From: an uncultured Alphaproteobacteria bacterium
Lineage (GTDB): Bacteria; Pseudomonadota; Alphaproteobacteria; UBA8366; GCA-2717185
Length of the DNA: 64,000 bases
Assembly (NCBI GenBank): GCA_943788635.1
Contig: CALSRA010000027.1
Coordinates: 124,001 to 188,000 of the forward strand
Direction: 5' to 3'
The position numbers and the translations under genes are program-made. Below are positions 27,828 to 41,403 of the stretch, one piece after another; positions within the stretch are counted from its first letter, which is position 1, and every line of letters begins with the position of its first letter. The notes beneath the pieces were generated by a model that ran no database searches, had not been told where the DNA came from, and was given only the letters and a program-made list of their open reading frames with translations.

Positions 27828-29984
27828 TTACTGCAGCATGTCGCGGAGCGTCCGGGCCAGAAGGTCGCGCTCGAAGGGCTTGTTGAGCAATACCTGGTCG
27901 GAATGCAGCAAACCGTTGCGCCGACCGGAGTCGGCCGGGTAGCCGGACATGAAGACGACCTTCAGTTTCGGGTTATCCGCAAGGGCGTTTCTGACGAATG
28001 CCGGGCCGCTGACTCCGCCGGGCAGAATCACATCAACGAGCAACAGGTCAACCGGCCGCTCCGCTGTCAGTACGGCTTTTGCCTCCACGGCGTAGCTGGT
28101 GGCGATGGTTCGGTATCCAAGGCTGTGCAGCATGCCGACCGCGAGCTTGCAGACGTCGGGATCGTCTTCGACAACCAGAATGGTTTCGCCGTTTCCCTGG
28201 GGGATGTCATCGTGTTGGCGCACGATGTCTTCCCGTTCGGCGGTCAGGGCACCCCGTGGCAGATAAAGCCTGACTGTCGTGCCCTTGCCCGGTTCGCTGT
28301 GGATTGCCGTATGTCCGCCTGATTGCCGGGCGAAACCATACACCATCGACAGGCCCAAGCCGCTTCCTTCGCCAACATCCTTGGTTGTGAAGAACGGTTC
28401 AAAAGCCTGTGTGCGGATTTCTGCCGTCATGCCGACCCCGTCGTCGCTGACGGTCAGGACAACATAGTCGCCGGGGATCGCCTCCGGGTCATCCGCTGTG
28501 TCGGAGTCGCTGAGCCGTGCATTCGTGCACTCGATTTTCAGCGTTCCGCCGTCGGGCATTGCATCCCGCGCGTTCAGGCAAAGGTTTAGCAGGGCGTTCT
28601 CAACCTGGCCGGAATCCGCCGTGGCCTGCCAGAGGTCCGGCGATGCGCTGGTCTGAATCTAGACCGTTGCGCCGAGGGTTCGGGACAGCAAATCCGACAT
28701 GCCCCTTGTCAGCGCGCCAAGATCGATTGCCTGTGGCCGCAGGGGTTGTCGGCGCGAAAAGGCCAGAAGCCGTTGGGTCAGTTCACCACCGCGCCGGGAT
28801 GCGCGATAAATTGCTGTCAGCGATTCGTTGTCCCTGCCCAACTGGTCTTCCAGCATCTGCGCATTGCCCATGATGATCATGAGCAGATTGTTGAAATCAT
28901 GCGCTACCCCACCGGTCAGTTGCCCGATCGCTTCCATTTTTTGAGCCTGATGCAGCCGCTCCTGCGTCGTTTTCAGCTCGGTGTCGTCACGGCAAATCAG
29001 CACCATCGCCGCGACACTGCCGTCATCCCGCGATACGGCAAACCGGCTGGCGGTGACGGACCGGGTTACCCCGTCAGCAGTCGTGATTTCGGATTCGTAT
29101 AGCCGAAGCGCCGGCGACCGGGTCGTTTCGTGGTCTTTGGCGGAAAAGTTATCTGCAACGTCTCTTGGAAAATACGCATGGTTTGTCTTGCCGATCGCTT
29201 CTTTCCGCGTTGTCATGCACCACGCTTCAAACACTTCGTTGACGAACAGGTAGCGCCCGTCCGTATCCTTGACACAGATGAAATCAGGCATGCCGTCCAT
29301 GACGGATTGCAGCAGGTTATCGTTGCTGCGCCGTAGTTCGATTTGCTGTTGCCTGATGACCTTGTCGGCGCGCCGGACGACCTGAAACAGGATGACATAA
29401 AGCAGGACCAGGGCCGTGAGGAGCGCGATGAAGACATGCGTTACGTGTTTGTCGATATTGGCCAGGACCGGGGCCAGATCGGAATCTATTTCCAAAACCC
29501 CGATGACCCTTCCGGTGCTCTCGCGAAGAGGAACAAAACTGGACAGGGTTTCGCTGGCACTGGAAGGGCGTCTCCGGGAGTTGGAGTTGCCGTCGCGGGC
29601 TATTTTGAACGCGGCATCCTCCGCCCTGCTGCGCCCGTTTTTTTCAGTCGTGGACGAGGCAATGACGCGGCCTTCAAGATTCAGGATACTGATCCGCAGC
29701 ACCGGCAAGCCGGCGATCTGTTGTGACAGGCTGTTGGATACAGCTGTCGCGGCCATTTCCCTTTCAGGGGGCTTGCCATCAAGGCGGGCAAAAACATTTT
29801 GAAGTGTACCGAATTGCGACCGGAGGTGATTTTCGACGGCCTGCCCTACAATCTTATTCTGACTTTCGCCCAGATGGATCATGTCTTCGATGGAAAGATG
29901 CCGGAGAAAAAGCATCAACACAGCCATCATCACAATGATGGCGCAGGCGCTTATTATCGAAAAATGACGCAGAAGTTTGGACAC
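27828..29984 (-). pseudogene. Hybrid sensor histidine kinase with one internal amber codon
   Basis: 718 codons in a single frame, interrupted only by TAG at 28661-28659. Order: TM1 (about 10-28), extracytoplasmic sensor (about 30-185, including RISILNLEGRVIAS), TM2 (about 190-210), PAS (ISVKDTDGRYLFVNE-like, about 245-350), HisKA with phosphoacceptor LTGGVAHDFNNLL, HATPase (NLCLNARDAMPDGGTL, GEGSGLGLSMVYGFARQ), receiver domain (ILVVEDDPDV, phospho-Asp in LLLVDVILPGG, NKPF). The stop lies between HisKA and HATPase where E/Q would fit (TV-stop-IQTSAS). As written, no active kinase would be made. No response regulator gene adjoins. Confidence 0.85.
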
Positions 29985-30220
29985 TGCCTTCGGTCTACTC
30001 CAAAAATTGTGCTTGCCCTAAAGGTGCCCTATGTCTGAAGACGGTGAAAGCATAGCGCCTTGCCGCCACACGGATAAAACCGTCGGCAAGTGACCTGAAT
30101 TTTCGACTTCGCTTTACCTTACAGGAATTCCGACGCCTGTGACATGTTCAGGTTCGGTTTATTTGAAAACGCACCTGAACCGGCTTGTCTGTTGTTTGCC
30201 GGGTAACTTAAGGTCGTGGC

Positions 30221-31774
30221 GTGCAGATGGTCATAGATTTCATGTCGGGCAGAGCGACACATAGTGGCAGATATGTCGTATTTGGTGTGTTTGTCTGCCT
30301 GTATTTTTTCGTGGCCCTGGTGGTGTCGGATGGTCGCCAGGGTTGGGGCGATGACTTTGCATTTTACATCGCGCAAGCGCGGGCTATTGTCGAAAGCGGA
30401 TCGCTGACGGACCCGGACTATGTGTTTAACCCCGATGCACTGGGGTATAGCCCCCTGGCTTATCCTCCGGGGTTGCCCGTCATGCTGGCGGCCGGTTACG
30501 CCATGTTCGGTCTGGATATTCAGAGCCTGAAGGTTCTGGTGATCCTGTCTGCCTGCCTTGGTTTTATCGCAGTATATCTGCTGTTCAATCGCATGCATTC
30601 GCCTGGCATGGCGTTCGCTGTGGTGTTGATCTTCGCCCTGAATCCCTATGTCTGGTCATATCAGCAGTACATTTTGTCGGAATTTCCCTATATCATGGGA
30701 TCGTTTTGCGCCCTATATTTTGTGCACCTTGCATATGAGAAGGAGGCGCGCGCCCGACTGTTATGTTGCCTGATCGCCGGTGCGCTGATCTTTGCTGCGG
30801 TCATGACCCGAACGGTAGGGCTGACGTTATTGCTGGCCTGTATTACCTACGGAATCCTGAATTTCAGCAGCCGACCGAAACGAAACGCGTCGTTGCTCAT
30901 TGTTGCCACTTTCTGCCTGCTGTATCTGCTCTTTGATATTTCAACGGAATATGCGACGCATGACGAAGACGTCGTCTGGTTATGCGCTTCCTGCCTGCCG
31001 ATGAATCTTTATTTCTATTATCAGGGACTGATCGATTTTCTGTCAGCAGGCGGGGCGCTCCCCGGGGTTGGCATGTACCGCGATGTTATCTGTATCAGCG
31101 GCATACTCCTCACATTGTCGGGCCTTGGGCTTGTCGTCCGCCGCGCATATCAGAAACGTCTGCACACCGAGCCTGTTTGGCAGCGGTTCCTGGCATCGTT
31201 TTCGCCGGTAGATATTTATTTTTGTGGCACGATACTGCTGATTTTTCTGTTGCCGGTACATTCCGCACCCCGGTTTCTTCTGCCGCTCCTGCCCATTGCG
31301 CTTTTTTACATTCTGGTTTCTCTTCTTAAGGTCGCATCTGGCACAAGGGGGCGGGAATGGGCGTTGAGTGGTGCTGCAATGGGATTTCTCTGCCTTTACG
31401 CTGCGGTTTACGCCACCTATTTGGTTTCCCCGGATCGTCAACAATCCGAAGCTTCCGTTACGTCGCCGGATGCTCAGGCGTTGTTTGAATTCATTACGAA
31501 TAATATTGAGGATACCGACCTCATTATCGCGCCGAAACCGAGGGCACTGGTGCTGTTTACGCGTCGACGCGCAACGGTTTTCGATGGGAATGTCGGCCCG
31601 GAAAACCTGATGGCAGATATTGAAGAACGCGGTGTGACCCATCTTGTGTTTGGGAAAACGAAGCGCGGTGGCATGTATGCATCGGACTGGATTCTGACTC
31701 ATCCGGTGATCGCCACCAACTTCGTCACGGTATTCGAAAACGCGCAATTCCGAGTGTTGGAAACAGCGCGATAA
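30221..31774 (+). CDS. GT39-like integral membrane glycosyltransferase
   Basis: 517 residues with about 11 hydrophobic segments. The N-terminal periplasmic loop has DDFAFYIAQARAIVES, with the acidic pair typical of the dolichyl-phosphate-mannose protein mannosyltransferase/ArnT fold, followed by PDALGYSPLAYPPGLPVMLA. The C-terminal soluble domain (about 430-517) is short. It likely transfers a sugar from a polyprenyl-phosphate donor on the outer face of the membrane. The lipid-linked sugar cluster at 2.6-5.8 kb could supply such donors (inference). GTG 30221 has AAGG 7 nt upstream; ATG 30227 or 30242 are alternatives. Confidence 0.8.
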   Translation: MQMVIDFMSGRATHSGRYVVFGVFVCLYFFVALVVSDGRQGWGDDFAFYIAQARAIVESGSLTDPDYVFNPDALGYSPLAYPPGLPVMLAAGYAMFGLDIQSLKVLVILSACLGFIAVYLLFNRMHSPGMAFAVVLIFALNPYVWSYQQYILSEFPYIMGSFCALYFVHLAYEKEARARLLCCLIAGALIFAAVMTRTVGLTLLLACITYGILNFSSRPKRNASLLIVATFCLLYLLFDISTEYATHDEDVVWLCASCLPMNLYFYYQGLIDFLSAGGALPGVGMYRDVICISGILLTLSGLGLVVRRAYQKRLHTEPVWQRFLASFSPVDIYFCGTILLIFLLPVHSAPRFLLPLLPIALFYILVSLLKVASGTRGREWALSGAAMGFLCLYAAVYATYLVSPDRQQSEASVTSPDAQALFEFITNNIEDTDLIIAPKPRALVLFTRRRATVFDGNVGPENLMADIEERGVTHLVFGKTKRGGMYASDWILTHPVIATNFVTVFENAQFRVLETAR

Positions 31775-31802
31775 ACCTCGCTCTACTGCGGGCTTTTATG
31801 AG

Positions 31803-33101
31803 TCATCCAAGCGCGCAGGTCCGGAAGCCGGCCAGCACATCCCGACGGTCCGGACCGAAATAATTACGGTAAGTGGAATCGATCACGCGGGACCGGGTTG
31901 CCCAGGCGCCGCCGCGCAGGACCATCGTGTCGTCGAACAGGGGTTCGGAATATTCCTTGTAATCATCGGGGGAAAACCCGGGATAGGGGCCAAAGGTCGT
32001 GTCGGTCCATTCCCACACGTTGCCGATCATCTGGCGCAGCCCGTGGATGCTGTCGCCCGCCGCGCGCGCCGCGACGTCGATCACGCCCAATGCGCGGCCG
32101 TCCAGGTTGGCGCGGGTGATGTCCGGCTCGGTCTCGCCCCAGGGATAGGCGCGTTTGTTGTCTTCGCCTGCCGGGCCCGCGGTTGCCGCGCATTCCCATT
32201 CGGCCTCGCTTGGCAGGCGGCGTCCCGCCCATCGGCACCAGGCCTGTGCTTCGTGCCAGCAGACATGGATGACCGGTTGGTTTGGCGGCAGCGAAACCGT
32301 TTTGTCGAAGCGGCGCAGGGTCCAGCCGCCGGCGCCATCGGGCTGCCAGTAGACCGGGTGCGTGGCGTTGGCTTTCTGCCGCCATTGCCAGCCGTCGTCG
32401 TCCCAGAATTCATGCCGGTGGTAGCCGCCGGCCTCGACGAAGGCGGCAAATTCCGAATTGGTCACCGGCGCGCGGGCCATGCGGAACGGGGCGACCGTCA
32501 CGGGATGCGCCCATTTTTCATTGTCGAAGACGAAGGGCGCGCCTTCTGGACTGCCGAGCATCAGCGTGCCGCCGGGAATATCCGCGTCGCCCGGCAATGG
32601 CCCGGCAGTATCATCTTCAGCCAAAGCCAGCGCATTGGCGAAGACCGGCGTGGAATAGGCAAGTGTCTGCCGCGCCCAGGTATAGGCCTCGGTATGCATG
32701 TCCTCGTGGAAGGTGGTGAACTGGTACAGGTAGCTGTCCTGCTCACTTGCTTCGCCCGTGCCAAGCCGGTCCAGCAGCGCATTCTGGACGCGGGCCATGT
32801 AGTCCAGCGTGTCGGCCATCGAATACAGCGGCAGGTCCCAGCGCTGATGATGCTGGATGCCGATTGAATCGTAAAGCTGGTCGCCGCGCGCCAGCAGGGG
32901 TTCGTGACCGTAGCGGCGGCGCAGGATGAAATATTCGTGGAACCAGGCGACATGCCCGATTTCCCAGTGCAGCGGGTTGACGATGGGCATCTGCGGCCCG
33001 ATAAGTTGGGTCTCGCAGAGTCCGTTCAGGAGTTCGAGGCTGCGTGACCGTGCGTCGCGCATGATATCCTGAAGACGGATGGTGGATACGGGATGGGTCA
33101 T
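31803..33101 (-). CDS. senA: EgtB-like selenoneine synthase (SenA type)
   Basis: 432 residues. N-terminal DinB-like domain with three His matching the EgtB iron triad: His50 (HWEIGHVAWFHEYF), His132 and His136 (FHEDMHTEA). C-terminal formylglycine-generating-enzyme-like domain (about 165-430): GGTLMLGSPEG, RAPVTNSEFAAFVEAGGY, RLPSEAEWECAA, GNVWEWTDTTFGPYPGF and RGGAWATRSR. EgtB links hercynine to gamma-Glu-Cys or Cys; the SenA branch uses a selenosugar. The assignment to SenA rather than EgtB rests on adjacency to a TIGR04348 glycosyltransferase and SelD, the combination described for selenoneine synthesis. ATG 33101 has CAGG upstream. Its first base is also the first base of senB. Confidence 0.85.
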   Translation of the reverse strand: MTHPVSTIRLQDIMRDARSRSLELLNGLCETQLIGPQMPIVNPLHWEIGHVAWFHEYFILRRRYGHEPLLARGDQLYDSIGIQHHQRWDLPLYSMADTLDYMARVQNALLDRLGTGEASEQDSYLYQFTTFHEDMHTEAYTWARQTLAYSTPVFANALALAEDDTAGPLPGDADIPGGTLMLGSPEGAPFVFDNEKWAHPVTVAPFRMARAPVTNSEFAAFVEAGGYHRHEFWDDDGWQWRQKANATHPVYWQPDGAGGWTLRRFDKTVSLPPNQPVIHVCWHEAQAWCRWAGRRLPSEAEWECAATAGPAGEDNKRAYPWGETEPDITRANLDGRALGVIDVAARAAGDSIHGLRQMIGNVWEWTDTTFGPYPGFSPDDYKEYSEPLFDDTMVLRGGAWATRSRVIDSTYRNYFGPDRRDVLAGFRTCALG

Positions 33102-34090
33102 TGACGCGCCTGCACGAAACTCATGGATGCCGGATTGTTCTTATAACGCCGGCGGCGCGGCGGTCCAAATCCGGAAACCGCAAGACCGCCAATCGCTGGG
33201 CGCGGATTCTGCGCGGTATTGGCCATCATGTACATGTTGCTGAAGAATATGATGCCGAGGATGCCGATCTGATGGTGGCGCTGCATGCCTGGCGCAGCGC
33301 TGAATCGATTGTTGCCTTCCGGGCGAAATTTCCCGGCCGCCCCGTCATTGTCGCGCTGACCGGCACCGATATCTACGCCTTCCAGTACAGCCACCCCGAA
33401 ACAACGCTGGAATCGATGCGGGTGGCGGACGGGCTGGTCTGCCTGCATGACCGGGTGGCGATGGATATCCCGGTGGAGTTCGGCGCCAAGCTGACCGCGA
33501 TCCCGCAATCCGCCCCGCCCTTGCCCGGGCCGCGTGTGCCCGCGAAACAGCATTTTGACGTTTGCGTGGTCGGCCATCTGCGGGCTGAGAAGGATTCGCT
33601 GCGCGCGGCTTATGCGGTGCGGGACCTGCCGCCGCAATCGCGGCTGCGGGTGATCCATCTGGGCAAGGCGTATAACGCGGAATGGGCGGAAATGGCGCAG
33701 GACGAGATGGCCCGAAATCCGCGCTATATCTGGCATGGCGAGGTGCCGGGCTGGCGCGTGCGCCGCGAATACGGGCACACGCATGCGGTGGTGATGAGTT
33801 CGATCATGGAAGGCGGCGCGAATGTGGTGTCGGAAGCCATTGTGGCGGGGGTGCCGGTGCTGGCGTCCGATATTTCGGGGAATATCGGCATGCTGGGTGA
33901 AGACTATCCGGGTTATTACAAATGTGAGGATACGGACGCCTTGCGGGCGCTGCTGATCCGCGCGGAATCGGAACCGGCATTCCTCGAAGACCTGACGCGA
34001 CGCTGCAAGGCGCTGGCCCCGCACTATACGCTCGAGGTTGAGGCGGCAGGCTGGCGCGATGTGATCGCGCGCGTTACAGCAACAGCGTAA
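33101..34090 (+). CDS. senB: Selenosugar synthase (SenB type, TIGR04348 glycosyltransferase)
   Basis: 329 residues. Family hallmarks: NRKTANRWARILRGIGH near the N-terminus, VALHAWRSAESI, IVALTGTDIYAF, VADGLVCLHD, and in the C-domain VVGHLRAEKDSLRAAYAVR and MEGGANVVSEAIVAGVPVLAS, a GT-B fold. SenB is known to form a selenosugar from a UDP-sugar and selenophosphate, the selenium donor for SenA. The only in-frame start is TTG 33101; no ATG or GTG exists upstream before a stop, and similarity begins by residue 11. It lies on the opposite strand to senA and selD. Its last 17 nt overlap the selD 3' end. Confidence 0.88.
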   Translation: MTRLHETHGCRIVLITPAARRSKSGNRKTANRWARILRGIGHHVHVAEEYDAEDADLMVALHAWRSAESIVAFRAKFPGRPVIVALTGTDIYAFQYSHPETTLESMRVADGLVCLHDRVAMDIPVEFGAKLTAIPQSAPPLPGPRVPAKQHFDVCVVGHLRAEKDSLRAAYAVRDLPPQSRLRVIHLGKAYNAEWAEMAQDEMARNPRYIWHGEVPGWRVRREYGHTHAVVMSSIMEGGANVVSEAIVAGVPVLASDISGNIGMLGEDYPGYYKCEDTDALRALLIRAESEPAFLEDLTRRCKALAPHYTLEVEAAGWRDVIARVTATA

Positions 34091-36341
34091 CCGGTTCCAG
34101 GGCGTCGCCTTCGGGCGTGATCGTGCCGATGATCGCCGTGCGCTCGTAACCCAGATTTTTCAGTTCTTCGACGCAGGCTTCCGCCTGATCTGCCGGTACG
34201 CTGGCCAGCAACCCGCCGGCGGTCTGCGGATCGAACAGCAGCGGGTAGCGCGGGTCCTTGCCGACCTTGTCGAGATCCTTGATGGCGCGGCGCAGGCGCA
34301 CGTTCTGTGGCTGCAGCGAGCTGACGATCCCTGCTTTCACGGTGTCCAGGGCGCCATCCATCATCGGGATGGCGTTCAGGTCGAGTTCGACATCGACGCC
34401 GGACGGCTTGGTCATTTCCACAAGGTGGCCCAGAAGGCCAAAGCCGGTGACGTCGGTGCAGGCGGTGGCGCCGTGCCGGAACAGGGATTCCGCCCCGGCC
34501 CGGTTCGATTTCAGCATCGATTCCAGCGCCGCCGCGATCCAGCGACCCTTTGCCTTCAGCCGCATATCGGCGGCGAACAGCGTGCCGGTGCCGATTGCCT
34601 TGGTAACGATCAGTTTGTCGCCGACGTTCATGCCGCCCTTGCGCATGATCTTGTCGCGTTCGACCAGCCCGTTGACCGCGAAACCGAGCGACAGCTCCGC
34701 CCCCTCACTGGTATGACCGCCGACCAGCGCGCAATTGGCGTCTTTCAGCACCAGCATCGCGCCGCTCATCATCTGGGTCAGGTCGTCCTCGACCTTGGCC
34801 TCTATTCCGTAGGGCAGGGTGGCGATGGCCAGCGCGGTTGTCGGGTCGCCGCCCATCGCAAAGATATCGCCGAGGCTGTGATTGGCCGAAATCTGGCCGA
34901 AGGTATAGGGGTCATCGATCATCGCGCGGAAGGAATCGACCGTATGGACCACGACCTTTTCGGCACCGACATCGACCACCGCCGCATCGTCCGGCGCATG
35001 CAGTCCGATCAGCACCTCTGGCCGGTCGACCGGCTCCAGCAGGCTCAGCGCCCGGGTCAGCACCGTCGCGCCAACCTTCGCACCACAGCCGCCGCAGCGC
35101 ATGGCGATGGCGGAAATTTCCTTGATCGTGGCCGCATCGGCGATGCCACTGGCGATATTGACCTTCTCGTCGGTCTTCATCTCCGGCAGTTCGTTGTACT
35201 TGCGCATGAAGCGCCGGTCGATCCAGTCCTTCCAGCGCCATAACAGCTTGCCTTCGCGGGCCCAGTTACCGCGCGAGGCGACGGCGTATTTGTTGCCTGT
35301 GCTGATCAGGCCGAGGAAATCCTTCTGCGGGGTGAAGGGTTTCAACCGTCGGCTTTGCAGGCGGCGGCGCAGGTTCTCGGTCAGTGGTGCTCCCTGGCGC
35401 ACGGCAAAGACACCGGATTTCGGGCGTGGGTGGTTCAGAACCGCCGCGATGTCGCCGGCGGCGAAAATATCGGGATGTGAGGTCGATTGCAGGAAATCGT
35501 TGACCGCGACAAAGCCGTTCTCATCCACATCCAGCCCGGATTCCTTCAGCCAGGGTGCGGCCCCGGCGGAAGTCACCCACAGGATTTCATCGAGCTCGAA
35601 GCTTGAACCATCATCGCAATGCAGTCGGCCCGGTTCGACGTTGGAAACCGCGTGACCGGTATGGACGACGACACCGCGCTCCGCCAGAACCCGCGCGAAG
35701 ATGGCGCTGACCTTCTCGTTATGGGTATGCAGCACCGCATTCTGGTTGGTGAACAGATGGAATTCCAGATGGTCCGCTGTGCGGCCCTGTTGTTGCAACA
35801 TGGTTTGCAGCCGGTACTGGACCGACAGCAGCAGTTCCACCCCGCCGGCGCCGCCGCCGACCACGCCGATCCGCGCGGGTTCGGTTCGGTTCAGCATGCG
35901 GTCGCGCATGGCTTCCCAATGGGCGAAAAAGCGGGCGATGGGTTTTACGGGGACTGAATTTTCCGTGGCGCCGGATACAAGATGCGTTGCCGGTGCAGAG
36001 CCGATATTGACGCTCAGCAGGTCATAGGGGACCGGCGGGCGGTTGTCGCACAGCACCCGTTTGTTGACCGTATCGATGCGGGTGACGTCGCTGTGATAGA
36101 AGCGTGCATGGGCGAATTGCGATAGTGGACCCAGGTCGATATGCGCGTCGTCATAGCTGTAATGCCCGGCGATCATGCCCGGCAGCATGCCGGAATAGGG
36201 TGTGTGCACGTCCCGGCAGATCACGGTCAGTCGCACGCCTGGCAAGGGTTTCATGCCGAATTTTCGCAAGACGGACACATGGCTGTGCCCGCCGCCGACG
36301 AGGACGAGGTCTTTTACGATCGGGGTGCCGGAATCCATCAT
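34074..36341 (-). CDS. selD: Selenophosphate synthetase fused to FAD/NAD(P) oxidoreductase (SenC role)
   Basis: 755 residues. N-terminal half is an NDH-2-like oxidoreductase: DLVLVGGGHSHVSVLRKFG, second Rossmann IGVVGGGAGGVELLLSV and HPDIFAAGDIAAVLN. C-terminal half from about 410 is SelD: MRCGGCGAKVG with Cys416, Cys419 and Lys422 (Cys419/Lys422 aligning with the catalytic Cys17/Lys20 of E. coli), HAPDDAAVV, GDIFAMGGDPTTALA, ALVGGHTSEGAELSLGF, DVTGFGLLGHL and DPQTAGGLL. It makes selenophosphate from selenide and ATP; the fused domain may reduce a selenium precursor (inference). Cys is used, not Sec. It starts 19 nt after the permease gene on the same strand, so it is probably the last gene of the transporter operon. 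Confidence 0.95.
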   Translation of the reverse strand: MMDSGTPIVKDLVLVGGGHSHVSVLRKFGMKPLPGVRLTVICRDVHTPYSGMLPGMIAGHYSYDDAHIDLGPLSQFAHARFYHSDVTRIDTVNKRVLCDNRPPVPYDLLSVNIGSAPATHLVSGATENSVPVKPIARFFAHWEAMRDRMLNRTEPARIGVVGGGAGGVELLLSVQYRLQTMLQQQGRTADHLEFHLFTNQNAVLHTHNEKVSAIFARVLAERGVVVHTGHAVSNVEPGRLHCDDGSSFELDEILWVTSAGAAPWLKESGLDVDENGFVAVNDFLQSTSHPDIFAAGDIAAVLNHPRPKSGVFAVRQGAPLTENLRRRLQSRRLKPFTPQKDFLGLISTGNKYAVASRGNWAREGKLLWRWKDWIDRRFMRKYNELPEMKTDEKVNIASGIADAATIKEISAIAMRCGGCGAKVGATVLTRALSLLEPVDRPEVLIGLHAPDDAAVVDVGAEKVVVHTVDSFRAMIDDPYTFGQISANHSLGDIFAMGGDPTTALAIATLPYGIEAKVEDDLTQMMSGAMLVLKDANCALVGGHTSEGAELSLGFAVNGLVERDKIMRKGGMNVGDKLIVTKAIGTGTLFAADMRLKAKGRWIAAALESMLKSNRAGAESLFRHGATACTDVTGFGLLGHLVEMTKPSGVDVELDLNAIPMMDGALDTVKAGIVSSLQPQNVRLRRAIKDLDKVGKDPRYPLLFDPQTAGGLLASVPADQAEACVEELKNLGYERTAIIGTITPEGDALEPVTLLL

Positions 36342-36360
36342 GCCCTTTTATCCGTAAATT

Positions 36361-37881
36361 TCATTCGTGGTCCAATGTGGTCTTTAACCGCAGCCGCGCG
36401 CGGATCATCCGTGACAGTGTGTCCACCGCGATGTTCAGCAGCGCGGTGATCAGGATGAGCAACAGGGCCCGATCATAGCGGATATCGGCGAAAGCGCTGT
36501 CGACGAAAAATCCCAGTGTCGGTATCCCCAGAATGCCGAGGATCGCGGTTTCCCGCAAAATCACTTCCCAGCGGTAGAACAAGAAGGCGAGAAACTGCGG
36601 GTAAACGCGCGGCAGGGCCTCCCAGAAATACAGGTTCAACCCTTTGGCGCTGTCTGCCCGCAGGGGCAGGGTTTCGGTATGGCGGCCGATCAGGTGGCCG
36701 ATGATCGCCGCGTTGTGCAGCGACAGCGCGACGATGGCCGGCGCCATGGACGGTCCCCAGAGCTGCAGGAAGACATAGGCGAGGATGTATTCCGGCGTGG
36801 AGCGCAGCACGACGAGGAAGACATGTCCGGCGGTGCGTCCCTTCGGGCCGAAAAATTTTGGCGATATCAGCGGGAAGAAGATCAATGTGCCGATCCCCGC
36901 CCCGACCAGCGCGATCATGGTCAGCACGAGCGTGTTGGCGATACCGGGCAGGGCCTGCGTCGTGAACAGTTCGGTGAGCCAATGCCAGAATGCCGTCAGC
37001 GCTGCGGTATCGATTGTCTCGGCCGTGCGCAGCGGATGCGGGACAATATCGCTGGTCAGGAAGCGGATGATGTTGTCGAGCGAGAAGCCCGCGCTGGACG
37101 GCAGCGCGAACAGCGCGCCGATCAGGTAGAGCGGCAGCAACTTGCGATGCATCCAGCGGCGCAGGGTCGCGATGATGATGTAGAACAGGATCAGCAGCGC
37201 CGAGACTTCGGAGTAGTGCCCCTGCCGGAAGGCGGATTCGAGATGATAGCCCAGGGTCGGCAGGCCGACAAAGCCCAATACCGCACTGGAACGCAGTCCG
37301 CATTCCAGCCGGTACAGTGAATAATTCTTGAAATGGGCGAAGGCTTCGGGAAGCCGGGCGAACAGGAATGTGGAAATGTTGCCGGTACCGGCCGGAATCA
37401 CCCGCAGCGGGGATTGATCCGCCTCTTCCATGATCTCCGAATAGACCTTGGCGATGATGCCGGAATAGGGAATGGCGATGGCCAGCACGCCGGTCAGTGG
37501 CGACAACCCGAATATCTGCAGGAAGATCAGCGCCCAGAACAACTCATGGATCGCCCGGATGAAGGCGCAGCCGACGCGAACGACGCGGTAGTGGAAGGCA
37601 AGCGCCAGCATGAAGCCGAAGACATTGGCCAGTGCCACTCCGACCAGCGCGAAGGCAAGGGTCATCAGGATGGCTTCGAACAGGGATTCCGTCGCCGTGA
37701 AATCCGGGGTGACGACGCCCAGCGCCATGCGGCCGAATTCGGTCCACGGATCGGAGGTACTGATTTCGATGTCGGCGACGAACAGCAATACGACGGCGAG
37801 GGCGAGGAAGCCCAGACTTGTCCGTGCCATTGGCGAGGCGCCGCCCCGCTCTATGGCGCGATCAACCGCGGTAGAGGTCAT
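36361..37881 (-). CDS. PhnE-like ABC permease, two permease domains fused (putative selenium uptake)
   Basis: 506 residues, about twice the length of one PhnE. Each half has the cytoplasmic EAA-type loop: LPEAFAHFKNYSLYRLECGLRSS... reads as LPEAFAHFKNYSLYR then VLGFVGLPTLGYHLESAF in the first, LPRVYPQFLAFLFYRWE then ILGIPTLGFFVDSAF in the second. About ten membrane segments in total. A fused dimer would form the whole channel with the ATPase encoded upstream. It overlaps the end of the ATPase gene by 20 nt and is followed by selD. Although it is close to phosphonate permeases, the selD context supports selenate or selenite transport; phosphonate remains possible. Confidence 0.85.
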   Translation of the reverse strand: MTSTAVDRAIERGGASPMARTSLGFLALAVVLLFVADIEISTSDPWTEFGRMALGVVTPDFTATESLFEAILMTLAFALVGVALANVFGFMLALAFHYRVVRVGCAFIRAIHELFWALIFLQIFGLSPLTGVLAIAIPYSGIIAKVYSEIMEEADQSPLRVIPAGTGNISTFLFARLPEAFAHFKNYSLYRLECGLRSSAVLGFVGLPTLGYHLESAFRQGHYSEVSALLILFYIIIATLRRWMHRKLLPLYLIGALFALPSSAGFSLDNIIRFLTSDIVPHPLRTAETIDTAALTAFWHWLTELFTTQALPGIANTLVLTMIALVGAGIGTLIFFPLISPKFFGPKGRTAGHVFLVVLRSTPEYILAYVFLQLWGPSMAPAIVALSLHNAAIIGHLIGRHTETLPLRADSAKGLNLYFWEALPRVYPQFLAFLFYRWEVILRETAILGILGIPTLGFFVDSAFADIRYDRALLLILITALLNIAVDTLSRMIRARLRLKTTLDHE

Positions 37882-38530
37882 CGAGATCGGACGGGGTCAT
37901 TCCCGCCGTCGGCTGGTCCAGGACGATCCGCCCGCCGCGCAATCCGATAATTCGGTCGGTGTATTCGATCGCCAGCGCGGTGTCGTGCATGGCAATGATG
38001 ACGGTTGGACAGCAATCGTTGATTGCCTGCAGGACGATGCGCGACTGGTGATCATCCACGGCTGAAACGGGTTCGTCGCCAATCAGGACCTTGGCGCCCT
38101 GATGCAGCGCGCGGGCGACGGCGGTGCGTTGTTGCTGCCCGCCGGATAACTGGCCCACGGGCGCGAAAAGTTTTTCGCCGATGCCCAGACGTTCTGCCAT
38201 CGCGCGTACGGGCGTAACCTCCTTCGCCATCGGGCGGATCAGATTGACGAGGTTGTACCAGGCGGAATGGCGGTTCAGCCGGCCCATATAAATATTGTGA
38301 AAGACGGACAGCACCCGCACGAGGCCGAGTTCCTGCGGTAGCAGGGCGGCCTCGGCGGCGCGCTGTTCGTAAAGCAGCTTCAGCAGCGTCGATTTTCCAG
38401 CGCCGCTGCGGCCGACCAGCGCGACGCGTTCGCCCTCGGCGATATGTAACGAGATATCGCTGAGGACGGCGCGCCCGTCGTAACGGGCGCTCGCCTCGCG
38501 CAGGTCAAACAGTGCTGTAGGCTGGGTCAG
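37862..38530 (-). CDS. PhnC-like ABC ATPase, apparent CTG start
   Basis: 222 residues if started at CTG 38530, which overlaps the stop of the binding-protein gene (CTGA). Walker A GRSGAGKST (about 40-48), Q-loop region LLPQELGLVRVLSVFHNIYMG, signature LSGGQQQR, Walker B VLIGDEPVSAVD, and H-loop IIAMHD. No ATG, GTG or TTG exists in frame upstream of Walker A; the first is GTG 38320, which would delete the P-loop. Either CTG is used or the start codon is misread. It energises the fused permease. Slightly shorter than PhnC (about 250). Confidence 0.85.
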   Translation of the reverse strand: MTQPTALFDLREASARYDGRAVLSDISLHIAEGERVALVGRSGAGKSTLLKLLYEQRAAEAALLPQELGLVRVLSVFHNIYMGRLNRHSAWYNLVNLIRPMAKEVTPVRAMAERLGIGEKLFAPVGQLSGGQQQRTAVARALHQGAKVLIGDEPVSAVDDHQSRIVLQAINDCCPTVIIAMHDTALAIEYTDRIIGLRGGRIVLDQPTAGMTPSDLDDLYRG

Positions 38531-39384
38531 TCGATCAGCCCGATCGATTTGCCCGTATCAACGATTGGCTGGTAATCCGCATTGGATGCGGGCACGAAGC
38601 TTTTGCGCGGGAACGATGCCAGCAGGTCCTTGTCATTCATGCCGAGCAGCGCCTGCGTTACCTTTTCGGTGAAACCCGCGCCGAATTTCTTTTCAACATC
38701 GCCGCGAATTGTCCACTGGTAATCGGGATAGGCCGGGGTCTTCCAGATGACCTTGACCTTGGACGGATCGATCTTGCCCGCCTTCACTTCGTTTTCCCAC
38801 ACGGCGTAATTGGTGGCGCCGACTTCATAGGCGCCGGACTGTACCAGTGCGATTGTGCGCGAATGGTCGCCGCTGAAGCCGACCCGGCCGAACACTTTGT
38901 CGGGTGCGCCGCCCAGTTCCTTGCGGATGTGGAATTCCGGCATCAGCCGACCGGAGGTTGAACCCTTGGACCCGAAGGTAAAGGTCTTGTCCTTGATCCC
39001 CATCGGGAAGCCCTTGCTTTCATTCAGGCCCGTGCTGGCATTGGCGATGAAATAGGTGACGAAGAACTGGTCCTCGTAACCCTGCGCGATGGCCTTGGAA
39101 CCATCGACCAGTCGCCGTGCCCGTACGCCGGACAAGCCGCCGAACCAGGCGAGCTGCACCTGGTCGTTACGGAAGGCGGTGACTGCCGCATCATAGGACT
39201 TTACCGGAATGAACTTCACGTCCACGCCCAGCGTTTTGGTCAGATAGGTTGCGACTTTCTGGAATCGTGTCTGCAACCGGCTTTCGTCTTCGTCTGGAAT
39301 AGCGGTGAAAACAAACGTGTCTGCATGTGCCGCGGCGCTAAGCCCCAGCAGCATTGCCGCTGTCATGAAAATATTTCGAAACAT
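38527..39384 (-). CDS. PhnD-like periplasmic binding protein, putative selenate/selenite type
   Basis: 285 residues from ATG 39384. Signal peptide FMTAAMLLGLSAAAHA-DT. Mature motifs: FTAIPDEDESRLQTRFQKVA, VDVKFIPVKSYDAAVTAF, VQLAWFGGLSGVRAR, GFSGDHSRTIALVQSG and TPAYPDYQWTIRGD. This matches the PhnD-related group I recall as TIGR04553 ('putative selenate ABC transporter periplasmic binding protein'), found beside SelD and TIGR04348 genes. Ligand specificity has not been inferred from residues here; it rests on family and neighbourhood. First gene of the operon binding protein - ATPase - permease - selD. Confidence 0.87.
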   Translation of the reverse strand: MFRNIFMTAAMLLGLSAAAHADTFVFTAIPDEDESRLQTRFQKVATYLTKTLGVDVKFIPVKSYDAAVTAFRNDQVQLAWFGGLSGVRARRLVDGSKAIAQGYEDQFFVTYFIANASTGLNESKGFPMGIKDKTFTFGSKGSTSGRLMPEFHIRKELGGAPDKVFGRVGFSGDHSRTIALVQSGAYEVGATNYAVWENEVKAGKIDPSKVKVIWKTPAYPDYQWTIRGDVEKKFGAGFTEKVTQALLGMNDKDLLASFPRKSFVPASNADYQPIVDTGKSIGLID

Positions 39385-39607
39385 CGTATACCCCTGTGTT
39401 GGATTATCGTTGTCGGGCCGTGACCCAGTCTCCTGATCGCCACGTATAACGAGGTGCTTGCCTGTCGGATAGTACGCCAGGGTCACTATATTGTCAGCAG
39501 CTGTAGTGCCTCATCGAAAAAATGTATGAACACGTATTCCCGTTGATACTGTAACAATGGTATCCGGGTCCGTCTCATATCCTATCTGCACTTGTTACCG
39601 AGAGCCA

Positions 39608-41403
39608 ATGTACGAAATATTCCGGAAATACCGCCTGTGCGCCCTGTGTTTTTTAGGCGGTGGACTTGCTGTCGGAATTTTGGCTTTCGTTGTGCAGGGG
39701 CAGGCCTTCGGTTTTGAGAATGTCCCGATTTTCGCGGTTCTGCCCTTGTTTTTTGTGGGGGCGGTTGCGGCCGCGGTTATTTTTGAACTGATCTCCCGGA
39801 ACCGGAATGCCCTGATGGAGCGCCGGTTGGCCGAGCAGGAATTACTGCGGCGGCACGAGACGGAAGAGCTGGAACGCCGGCGTGTGGCCGCGACGCAGCG
39901 GGAAATCGAGGAACGGTTCCGGAATCTCGCGCGGATCGCGCCGGTCGGCATTTTTGAAACGGATGCGGATGGCGCCTGTGTCCACGTTAATCGGCAATGG
40001 TCCGACATAACCGGGGTCAGCGAGGCATCGGCCCGACGCGGTGGCTGGGTCGGTGCCATTCATATCGACGACCGGGAAAGAGTGGCCAGCGAATGGCGTG
40101 CCGCCGTGCAGAACAATTCCGAATTCGTGCAGGAATACCGGTTCATGCATGCGGATGGCGAAGTGTTCTGGGTTCTGGGCCAGGCGGTGGCGAATAGGGA
40201 CGCGGAAGGGGTTGTGACCGGTTACGTGGGCACGGCAACGGATATTACGCGGCACCGCGAAACCGAACACCGGCAGCGCCAGACACACAGAATGGAAGCG
40301 GTGGGCCAGTTAACCGGCGGTGTCGCGCATGATTTCAACAATCTGCTCGCGGTCATCATGAGCAACGCTGAACTGCTGCAACTTCGTCCCAAGGATGGCG
40401 ACCGGATGATCAATGCGATTATCCGGGCTGTCACAAGAGGTGCGGAGCTGACACAGCGATTGCTGGCCTTTTCACGGCGACAGCCGCTGAAGCCGCAGGC
40501 GCTGGATGTCGGCAAGCTGGTTTCGGGACTCTCCAATCTTCTGGTTCGGACACTGGGGGAGACAGTTTCCGTCGAGATCAAGGGCGTGCACGGGCTGTGG
40601 CCCGCGCTGGCCGATCCGGGCCAGGTCGAGAACGCATTGCTGAATCTGGCGCTCAATGCCCGCGATGCGATGCCGGGCGGCGGTACACTGAAGATTTCAT
40701 CCCGGAATGCGCGTCTCAATGCGGCTGATGTTGCTGACTTTGAGGAAATGCAGCCGGGTGAATACGTCGAACTATCCGTGCGTGATACCGGTGATGGTAT
40801 GCCCGGTGACGTGCGAATGCGTGCGTTCGAACCGTTTTTCACGCGACCAAGGAAGTTGGTCAGGGAAGCGGGCTGGGCCTGTCCATGGTCTATGGCTTCG
40901 CGAAGCAGTCCGGCGGCCATGCGGTCATCCGCAGCGAAGAGGGCCAGGGAACGACCGTCACGCTATATCTGCCCCGGGGGACTGCCGCGCCCGTGACCGC
41001 GTATACGGAAAGTTCGGCCGACGTGCCGCCCGGCAGGGGCGAGGCCATTATGGTTATTGAAGACAGCGAGGAAGTCCGCGATCTCGCGGCGAAACTGTTG
41101 ACCGGTCTGGATTATCTGGTGACGGCGGTTCCCGATGTCGCCGACGCGCGGCGGATACTGGCGGATGGCGCTGTCCTGGACCTGGTGCTGTCGGATGTCA
41201 TTCTGCCCGGCGGCATGAGCGGCCCTGAATTCGCGCGGGAAATCCGCGCAAGCCATCCGGACCTGAAGGTTATTTTCATGTCGGGCTTCGCAACAGAGGC
41301 GGATACCAGTGACGGCTTCCCCGAAGCAAGCCAGGTTCTGATCCGCAAGCCCTTTCAGCGCCTGGCGCTGGCAACGGCCCTGCGAGACGCGCTGGACGAC
41401 TGA
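39608..41403 (+). pseudogene. Hybrid sensor histidine kinase, 2-base insertion
   Basis: About 598 residues. Two N-terminal membrane segments (LCALCFLGGGLAVGILAFVV and VPIFAVLPLFFVGAVAAAVI), coiled linker, PAS (about 120-240, NLARIAPVGIFETDADG), HisKA QLTGGVAHDFNNLL, HATPase NLALNARDAMPGGGTL. At 40842-40847 the sequence ACGCGACC should read ACGACC (extra CG); the other frame then gives GSGLGLSMVYGFAKQSGGHA and a receiver domain with VIEDSEEVRD, LVLSDVILPGGMSG and IRKPFQ. Paralogue of the kinases at 27.8 and 44.7 kb. Start ATG 39608 preferred; 39557 is in frame. It diverges from the selenium transporter operon. Confidence 0.82.

Follow-up and report, generated by a model that had tools for sequence, protein, structure and literature searches.

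The sen gene cluster for selenoneine, senABC, was described by Kayrouz et al. (2022, Nature; known to us via PMC9814287, in which we found no statement on the orientation of its genes). Among the papers searched, none combined "selenoneine" with "divergently transcribed", and further listings contained no title on sen genes. In the bidirectional promoters of Escherichia coli, the two divergent transcription starts are located either on both sides of a shared -10 element or inside it, most often 18 bp apart and also 10 and 23 bp apart (Warman et al. 2026, PMC12825309, in the excerpts consulted). For the Staphylococcus aureus noncontiguous operon menE-menC-MW1733-ytkD-MW1731, transcriptome data revealed co-transcription across an antisense gene, and an excludon is characterized by a long antisense transcript that lowers expression of the neighboring gene (both as given in the consulted sections of PMC7154746).

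We analyzed a stretch of 64,000 nucleotides from an uncultured alphaproteobacterium (the window) in which senA and senB lie next to a gene for selenophosphate synthetase, predicting a selenoneine biosynthesis cluster from its genes. Like senABC, this locus encodes SenA, SenB and a SelD together. It differs from senABC, as described in PMC9814287, in having SelD fused to a TIGR03169 domain and in carrying a transporter of the TIGR04553 type. The features of the locus are as follows:

31803..33101, minus strand: senA, selenoneine synthase (NF041186, 495 bits, cut-off 420)
33099..33103, both strands: CATTG junction of the senA and senB starts
33101..34090, plus strand: senB, selenosugar synthase (Se-glycosyltransferase), with a TTG start (TIGR04348, 391 bits, cut-off 300)
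33140..33145, minus strand: candidate senA -10, TATAAG, equivalent to senB codons CTT ATA (codons invariant in 7/7 family-clade loci)
33163..33168, minus strand: candidate senA -35, TTGGAC, with a 17-nt spacer, a weak match (promoter scoring with a codon-shuffle null)
34074..34090, both strands: tail-to-tail overlap of senB and selD, 17 nt (from the sequence)
34074..36341, minus strand: selD fusion, TIGR03169 oxidoreductase plus selenide,water dikinase (profile matches)
36361..37881, minus strand: PhnE-type permease of a putative selenium-oxyanion ABC transporter (TIGR01097, 228 bits)
37862..38530, minus strand: PhnC-type ATPase, with CTG as its apparent start, across the stop codon of the binding-protein gene (from the sequence)
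38527..39486, minus strand: periplasmic binding protein of a putative selenate ABC transporter (TIGR04553, 383 bits, cut-off 250)
39469..39497, minus strand: promoter-like site heading the phnD-C-E-selD run, CTGACA-17-TACTAT (consensus scan only)

The SelD domain of the fusion matched TIGR00476 at 291 bits (cut-off 125). The N-terminus of the PhnC-type ATPase is covered by no ATG, GTG or TTG start (38500-38530, minus strand), and its start is likely the CTG within the CTGA that lies over the binding-protein stop; several relatives have ATG, and a congener has GTG, a few codons further in. PAS histidine kinases are encoded on either side of the selenium genes, at 28659-29984 (minus strand) and 39557-40996 (plus strand). 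The region with the promoter-like site at 39469..39497 contained two such sites, compared with 3.1 expected in shuffled sequence. An Rfam scan of window positions 30000-40000 with E values up to 0.1 returned no RNA family matches.

Apart from senB, all selenium genes of the locus up to 39486 (senA, the selD fusion and the phnE-, phnC- and phnD-like genes) are on the minus strand. The senA ATG is the complement of 33099-33101 and the senB TTG occupies 33101-33103, with base 33101 common to both. Since there is no intergenic DNA between the two genes, any senB promoter in this genome must lie within senA. The initial annotation had already pointed to the opposite-strand placement of senB, the shared base, the consequence for the senB promoter and the 17-nt overlap of the senB and selD tails, and all four agree with our reading of the sequence. 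The SenA N-terminus, M-T-x-P-V, is kept from the ATG at 33101 in many relatives, and the TTG at 33101-33103 is the sole ATG, GTG or TTG start ahead of the conserved SenB N-terminus.

The shared base would be an accident of annotation if senB of this genus began elsewhere, at the in-frame CTG at 33110 or at a non-standard codon. This CTG is preserved in each of the three locus-bearing species of the genus, and for this reason the exact senB start is one that we infer; in addition, the match to the TIGR04348 model opens only at SenB residue 12. However, the TTG and the common base recur in the same three species (L016, the window's own locus, L009 and L013), where TTG is the only common start codon kept in all, and a GGTG lies within 18 nt upstream in two of the three. 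Even a CTG start would leave only 8 nt between the senA and senB starts. We consider a misread start improbable.

We compared 110 senB loci: 18 from relatives, 80 from named genome contigs and 12 others from a phylum sample, with some duplicates among them. Counting the window's genome, senB exceeded the cut-off in 18 of the 59 relatives searched. All 18 of these loci have senA head-to-head with senB, and in 17 the nearest selenium gene beyond senB is convergent with it (the contig of L007 shows none). Across the full set, a divergent senA lies within 450 nt of senB in 87/110 loci, three of the other 23 being at a contig edge, and the head-to-head arrangement is present in 39 of 47 clusters formed at 70% identity. 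In 71 loci the next selenium gene past senB is convergent, in 8 it is co-directional, and in 31 none was found within 1.1 kb. The pair is still head-to-head in loci with selD on the far side of senA (e.g., L086, L089, L094, L105 and L114) or co-directional with senB (L117-L120 and L125). Hence the order of senA and senB is kept, whereas the position of selD varies, and an antisense senB is found outside minus-strand operons as well. What stays constant across these loci is the head-to-head pair, and we dropped the selD-senB-senA antisense arrangement as a conserved unit.

Some loci depart from this pattern. L053, L054, L055 and L060 (upstream of 5001) are senB-selD-phn clusters without senA; their senB starts at TTG behind a clear Shine-Dalgarno sequence. 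In L054, senB is preceded by a same-strand gene, and the adjoining genes encode a large protein that by eye resembles a molybdenum hydroxylase and an amidohydrolase. In L068 and L074, from Vreelandella utahensis, an organism linked to ovoselenol, senB is co-directional with a distant senA-like gene (40% identity). A permease gene is directly convergent with senB in L008, L011, L057, L088, L096 and L112. In L010 and L038 and, across a gap of about 0.9 kb, in L004 and L005, a TIGR03169-like oxidoreductase without a SelD domain occupies the place of the selD fusion.

The close packing of senA and senB is not due to chance. A rough gene call over 240 kb of the same contig yielded 222 genes, with 42 divergent and 43 convergent pairs. 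The senA/senB gap is -1 nt, and the other 41 divergent gaps are all at least 74 nt. Overlapping tails occurred in 4 of the 43 convergent pairs, senB/selD included, so on this contig the tail overlap is less odd than the divergent gap of -1.

The start-to-start gap was measured in the 86 loci in which both starts could be placed. It is mostly 14-38 nt in alphaproteobacteria, reaches 193 nt in gammaproteobacteria, and is -1 in all three species of the window's genus that have the locus; starts are unsure in L091, L115, L117 and L123 (gaps of -49, -2, -6 and -2). At gaps of -1 to 38 nt, the genes are adjacent and divergent with too little room for separate promoters between them, as in divergent overlapping promoters. 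On a SenB tree of 49 rows, the three genus members form one clade nested among loci with gaps of 19-24 nt, and a single origin of the shared base is the simplest explanation. Where relatives begin senB with ATG AAG ATT, the ancestral ATG position reads TGC CGG or CGC CGG in this genus, and the reading frame opens upstream at the TTG. As judged from this tree, the sharing of exactly one base is a derived condition confined to a single genus, and a late extreme of a conserved pair.

We looked for promoter signals within the coding sequences. A minus-strand TAnnnT facing senA falls within senB codons 2-7 in 39 of 53 tight pairs, compared with 5 of 20 wide-gap pairs (gap over 40 nt) and 11 of 23 senB genes without an adjacent senA. 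An ATC at the isoleucine codon 3 of senB would spoil the opposite-strand -10, and in tight loci ATC was seen 8 times versus 29.1 expected (n = 47). The controls were close to expectation, at 8 versus 9.1 for wide-gap loci (n = 17) and 10 versus 11.0 for senB without an adjacent senA (n = 22). AT-rich gene starts were set aside as a cause of the codon-3 bias, since it is absent from both control groups. The cluster-weighted z score for ATC avoidance was -6.6, -4.0 and -2.4 at 80%, 70% and 65% identity, respectively; the loci are related, the signals weaken at the coarsest clustering, and the patterns were partly picked post hoc. With codons permuted within the first 30, the senA-directed promoter score had a mean z of 0.68 (54 loci) and an SE of 0.12 that is too small because the loci are related; the score matrix was written after the sigma-70 consensus and untrained. 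The strongest lone codon signal was AGC at senB codon 4, with a z of 6.4 that is inflated, as serine codons seldom change between the AGY and TCN types. Collectively, senB codons 2-7 appear to contain a senA -10 in tight pairs.

In the window's genus, this candidate -10 is displaced relative to its position in relatives, and none of the three species has a TAnnnT facing senA in codons 2-7. The candidate at 33140..33145 corresponds to CTT ATA, the sole codon-invariant neighboring pair among the first 40 senB columns in the family clade (7 loci). ATA is rare in this clade, and the isoleucine column of this pair is the only one of 16 (8 in senB, 8 in senA) that is ATA throughout. Of the residue-invariant senB columns in the window's family, 15/166 are also codon-invariant.

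For senB, we counted hexamers upstream of the start in 49 tight loci (L115, L123 and the three loci of the window's genus were left out). The last base of a TAnnnT is placed exactly 6 nt ahead of the senB start in 11/49, or 5 of 28 clusters, compared with a mean of 0.84 and a maximum of 5 in 5,000 gap shuffles. A -10 at this position would put the RNA start on the senB ATG, which suggests that the senB mRNA is leaderless in these relatives. They are a minority of the tight loci, and the position is absent from the window's genus with its TTG start. Tight-pair senB genes start with ATG (44) or GTG (5) in 49/52 loci. A Shine-Dalgarno match of at least 5 precedes senB in 6 of 52 tight pairs, 1 of 20 wide pairs and 6 of 20 loci without a divergent senA. 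Its scarcity is thus not specific to tight pairs, as wide divergent pairs are also poor. Among the same 20 loci without a divergent senA, senB has a TTG start in 8, and 6 of these 8 have a Shine-Dalgarno match of at least 5.

Within senA, senB-directed promoters showed no clear enrichment (mean z of 0.66 with resampled codons). For the window's genus, the search inside senA yielded only a weak best site and no clear senB promoter. The 5' codons of senA likewise showed no excess synonymous conservation and no outstanding column in 44 loci (ten of the 54, from other lineages, were left out), and synonymous conservation as a general mark of embedded promoters failed for this gene.

The initial annotation had likened the locus to a noncontiguous operon or excludon. 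Under this explanation, the phnD-C-E-selD transcript would continue antisense through senB into senA, and the senB mRNA would act as both message and antisense RNA, giving reciprocal control. The likeness holds insofar as senB lies opposite and between same-strand pathway genes, ordered phnDCE-selD-(senB)-senA in the window, as does one gene within the S. aureus pathway run, and neighboring transcripts could overlap in antisense as in an excludon. The locus differs in that the arrangement is not conserved across sen loci, and the co-transcription across the antisense gene and the long antisense transcript that mark the S. aureus operon and the excludon (as presented in the consulted sections of PMC7154746) are here possibilities. 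A scan limited to intrinsic terminators, which neither shows nor excludes read-through, found none between selD and senA or at the senB/selD junction and no excess over shuffles. Read-through from selD is therefore possible, and it could act together with promoters at the junction. Tails overlap in 29 of the 71 loci with a convergent selenium gene and come within 19 nt in 48; the overlap is exactly 17 nt in 15/71, several of them distant relatives. However, the head-to-head pair is kept with selD beyond senA or co-directional with senB, so it does not depend on an upstream minus-strand operon, and the promoter-like constraint facing senA within senB suggests that senA has a start of its own. 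What is seen in relatives favors promoters where senA and senB meet head-to-head over a noncontiguous operon as the sole source of senA mRNA. We regard the operon or excludon explanation as doubtful; interpenetrating promoters are better supported, with the former possible.

Alternatively, the genes may simply be packed: an old divergent pair whose spacer eroded without regulatory meaning, leaving promoters wherever they fell. The range of gaps, from about -1 to 193 nt, the lack of synonymous constraint on the senA 5' codons and the loss of the relatives' -10 positions in the window's genus are consistent with this view. Drift would not be expected to produce the exact 6-nt placement of TAnnnT, the avoidance of ATC in tight pairs only or the invariant CTT ATA, and neighboring divergent pairs on the contig are not packed. 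Erosion without function is thus unlikely in our estimation, if slightly less so than a misread start. Our own proposal, to which we would give an even chance, is that the promoters of senA and senB interpenetrate and that the two genes are a conserved divergent pair.

In the alphaproteobacterial form of such a pair, the senB -35 would lie over the first senA codons and its -10 in the short gap, and senB RNA would start at or near its own ATG. The senA -10 and -35 would fall inside the first ~16 senB codons, giving senA RNA a leader of ~20-35 nt. Both -10 candidates were seen in 13 of 54 loci, and assuming that RNA starts 7 nt past the -10, the spacing of predicted starts is 2-4 bp in 10/13 and -5 in 3/13. 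At 2-4 bp, one RNA polymerase would exclude the other, and a single switch would serve senA and senB alternately, unlike an operon. The window's genus has lost the older senB ATG, and its senB has been extended upstream to the TTG, which has one base in common with the senA ATG; the senB promoter must then lie inside senA, and the two 5' ends would overlap by ~30 nt. Our more tentative suggestion, held at somewhat less than even confidence, is a metabolic switch: with promoters fully interpenetrating in each other's coding start, RNA starts a few base pairs apart, leaderless senB and mutually exclusive polymerase binding, competition at one site would set the ratio of the selenosugar maker, SenB, to the selenosugar user, SenA, and alternation would balance the two. 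If this is true, regulatory elements for selenoneine are written in the coding sequence of both enzymes, promoter competition sets the SenA/SenB balance, and codon choice at the start of a gene serves its opposite-strand neighbor.

Like the bidirectional promoters of E. coli, the sen pair would produce divergent RNAs (here predicted) from a short stretch of DNA, with polymerase competition possible. Unlike those promoters, in which the part of PMC12825309 consulted describes a shared -10, the sen candidates are separate in 13/13 loci having both, with no shared symmetric -10. Each candidate -10 lies beyond the other's predicted start, the predicted starts are 2-4 bp apart and the elements would be inside coding sequence. 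The senA/senB arrangement belongs with the divergent promoter arrangements already known, as a variant of them.
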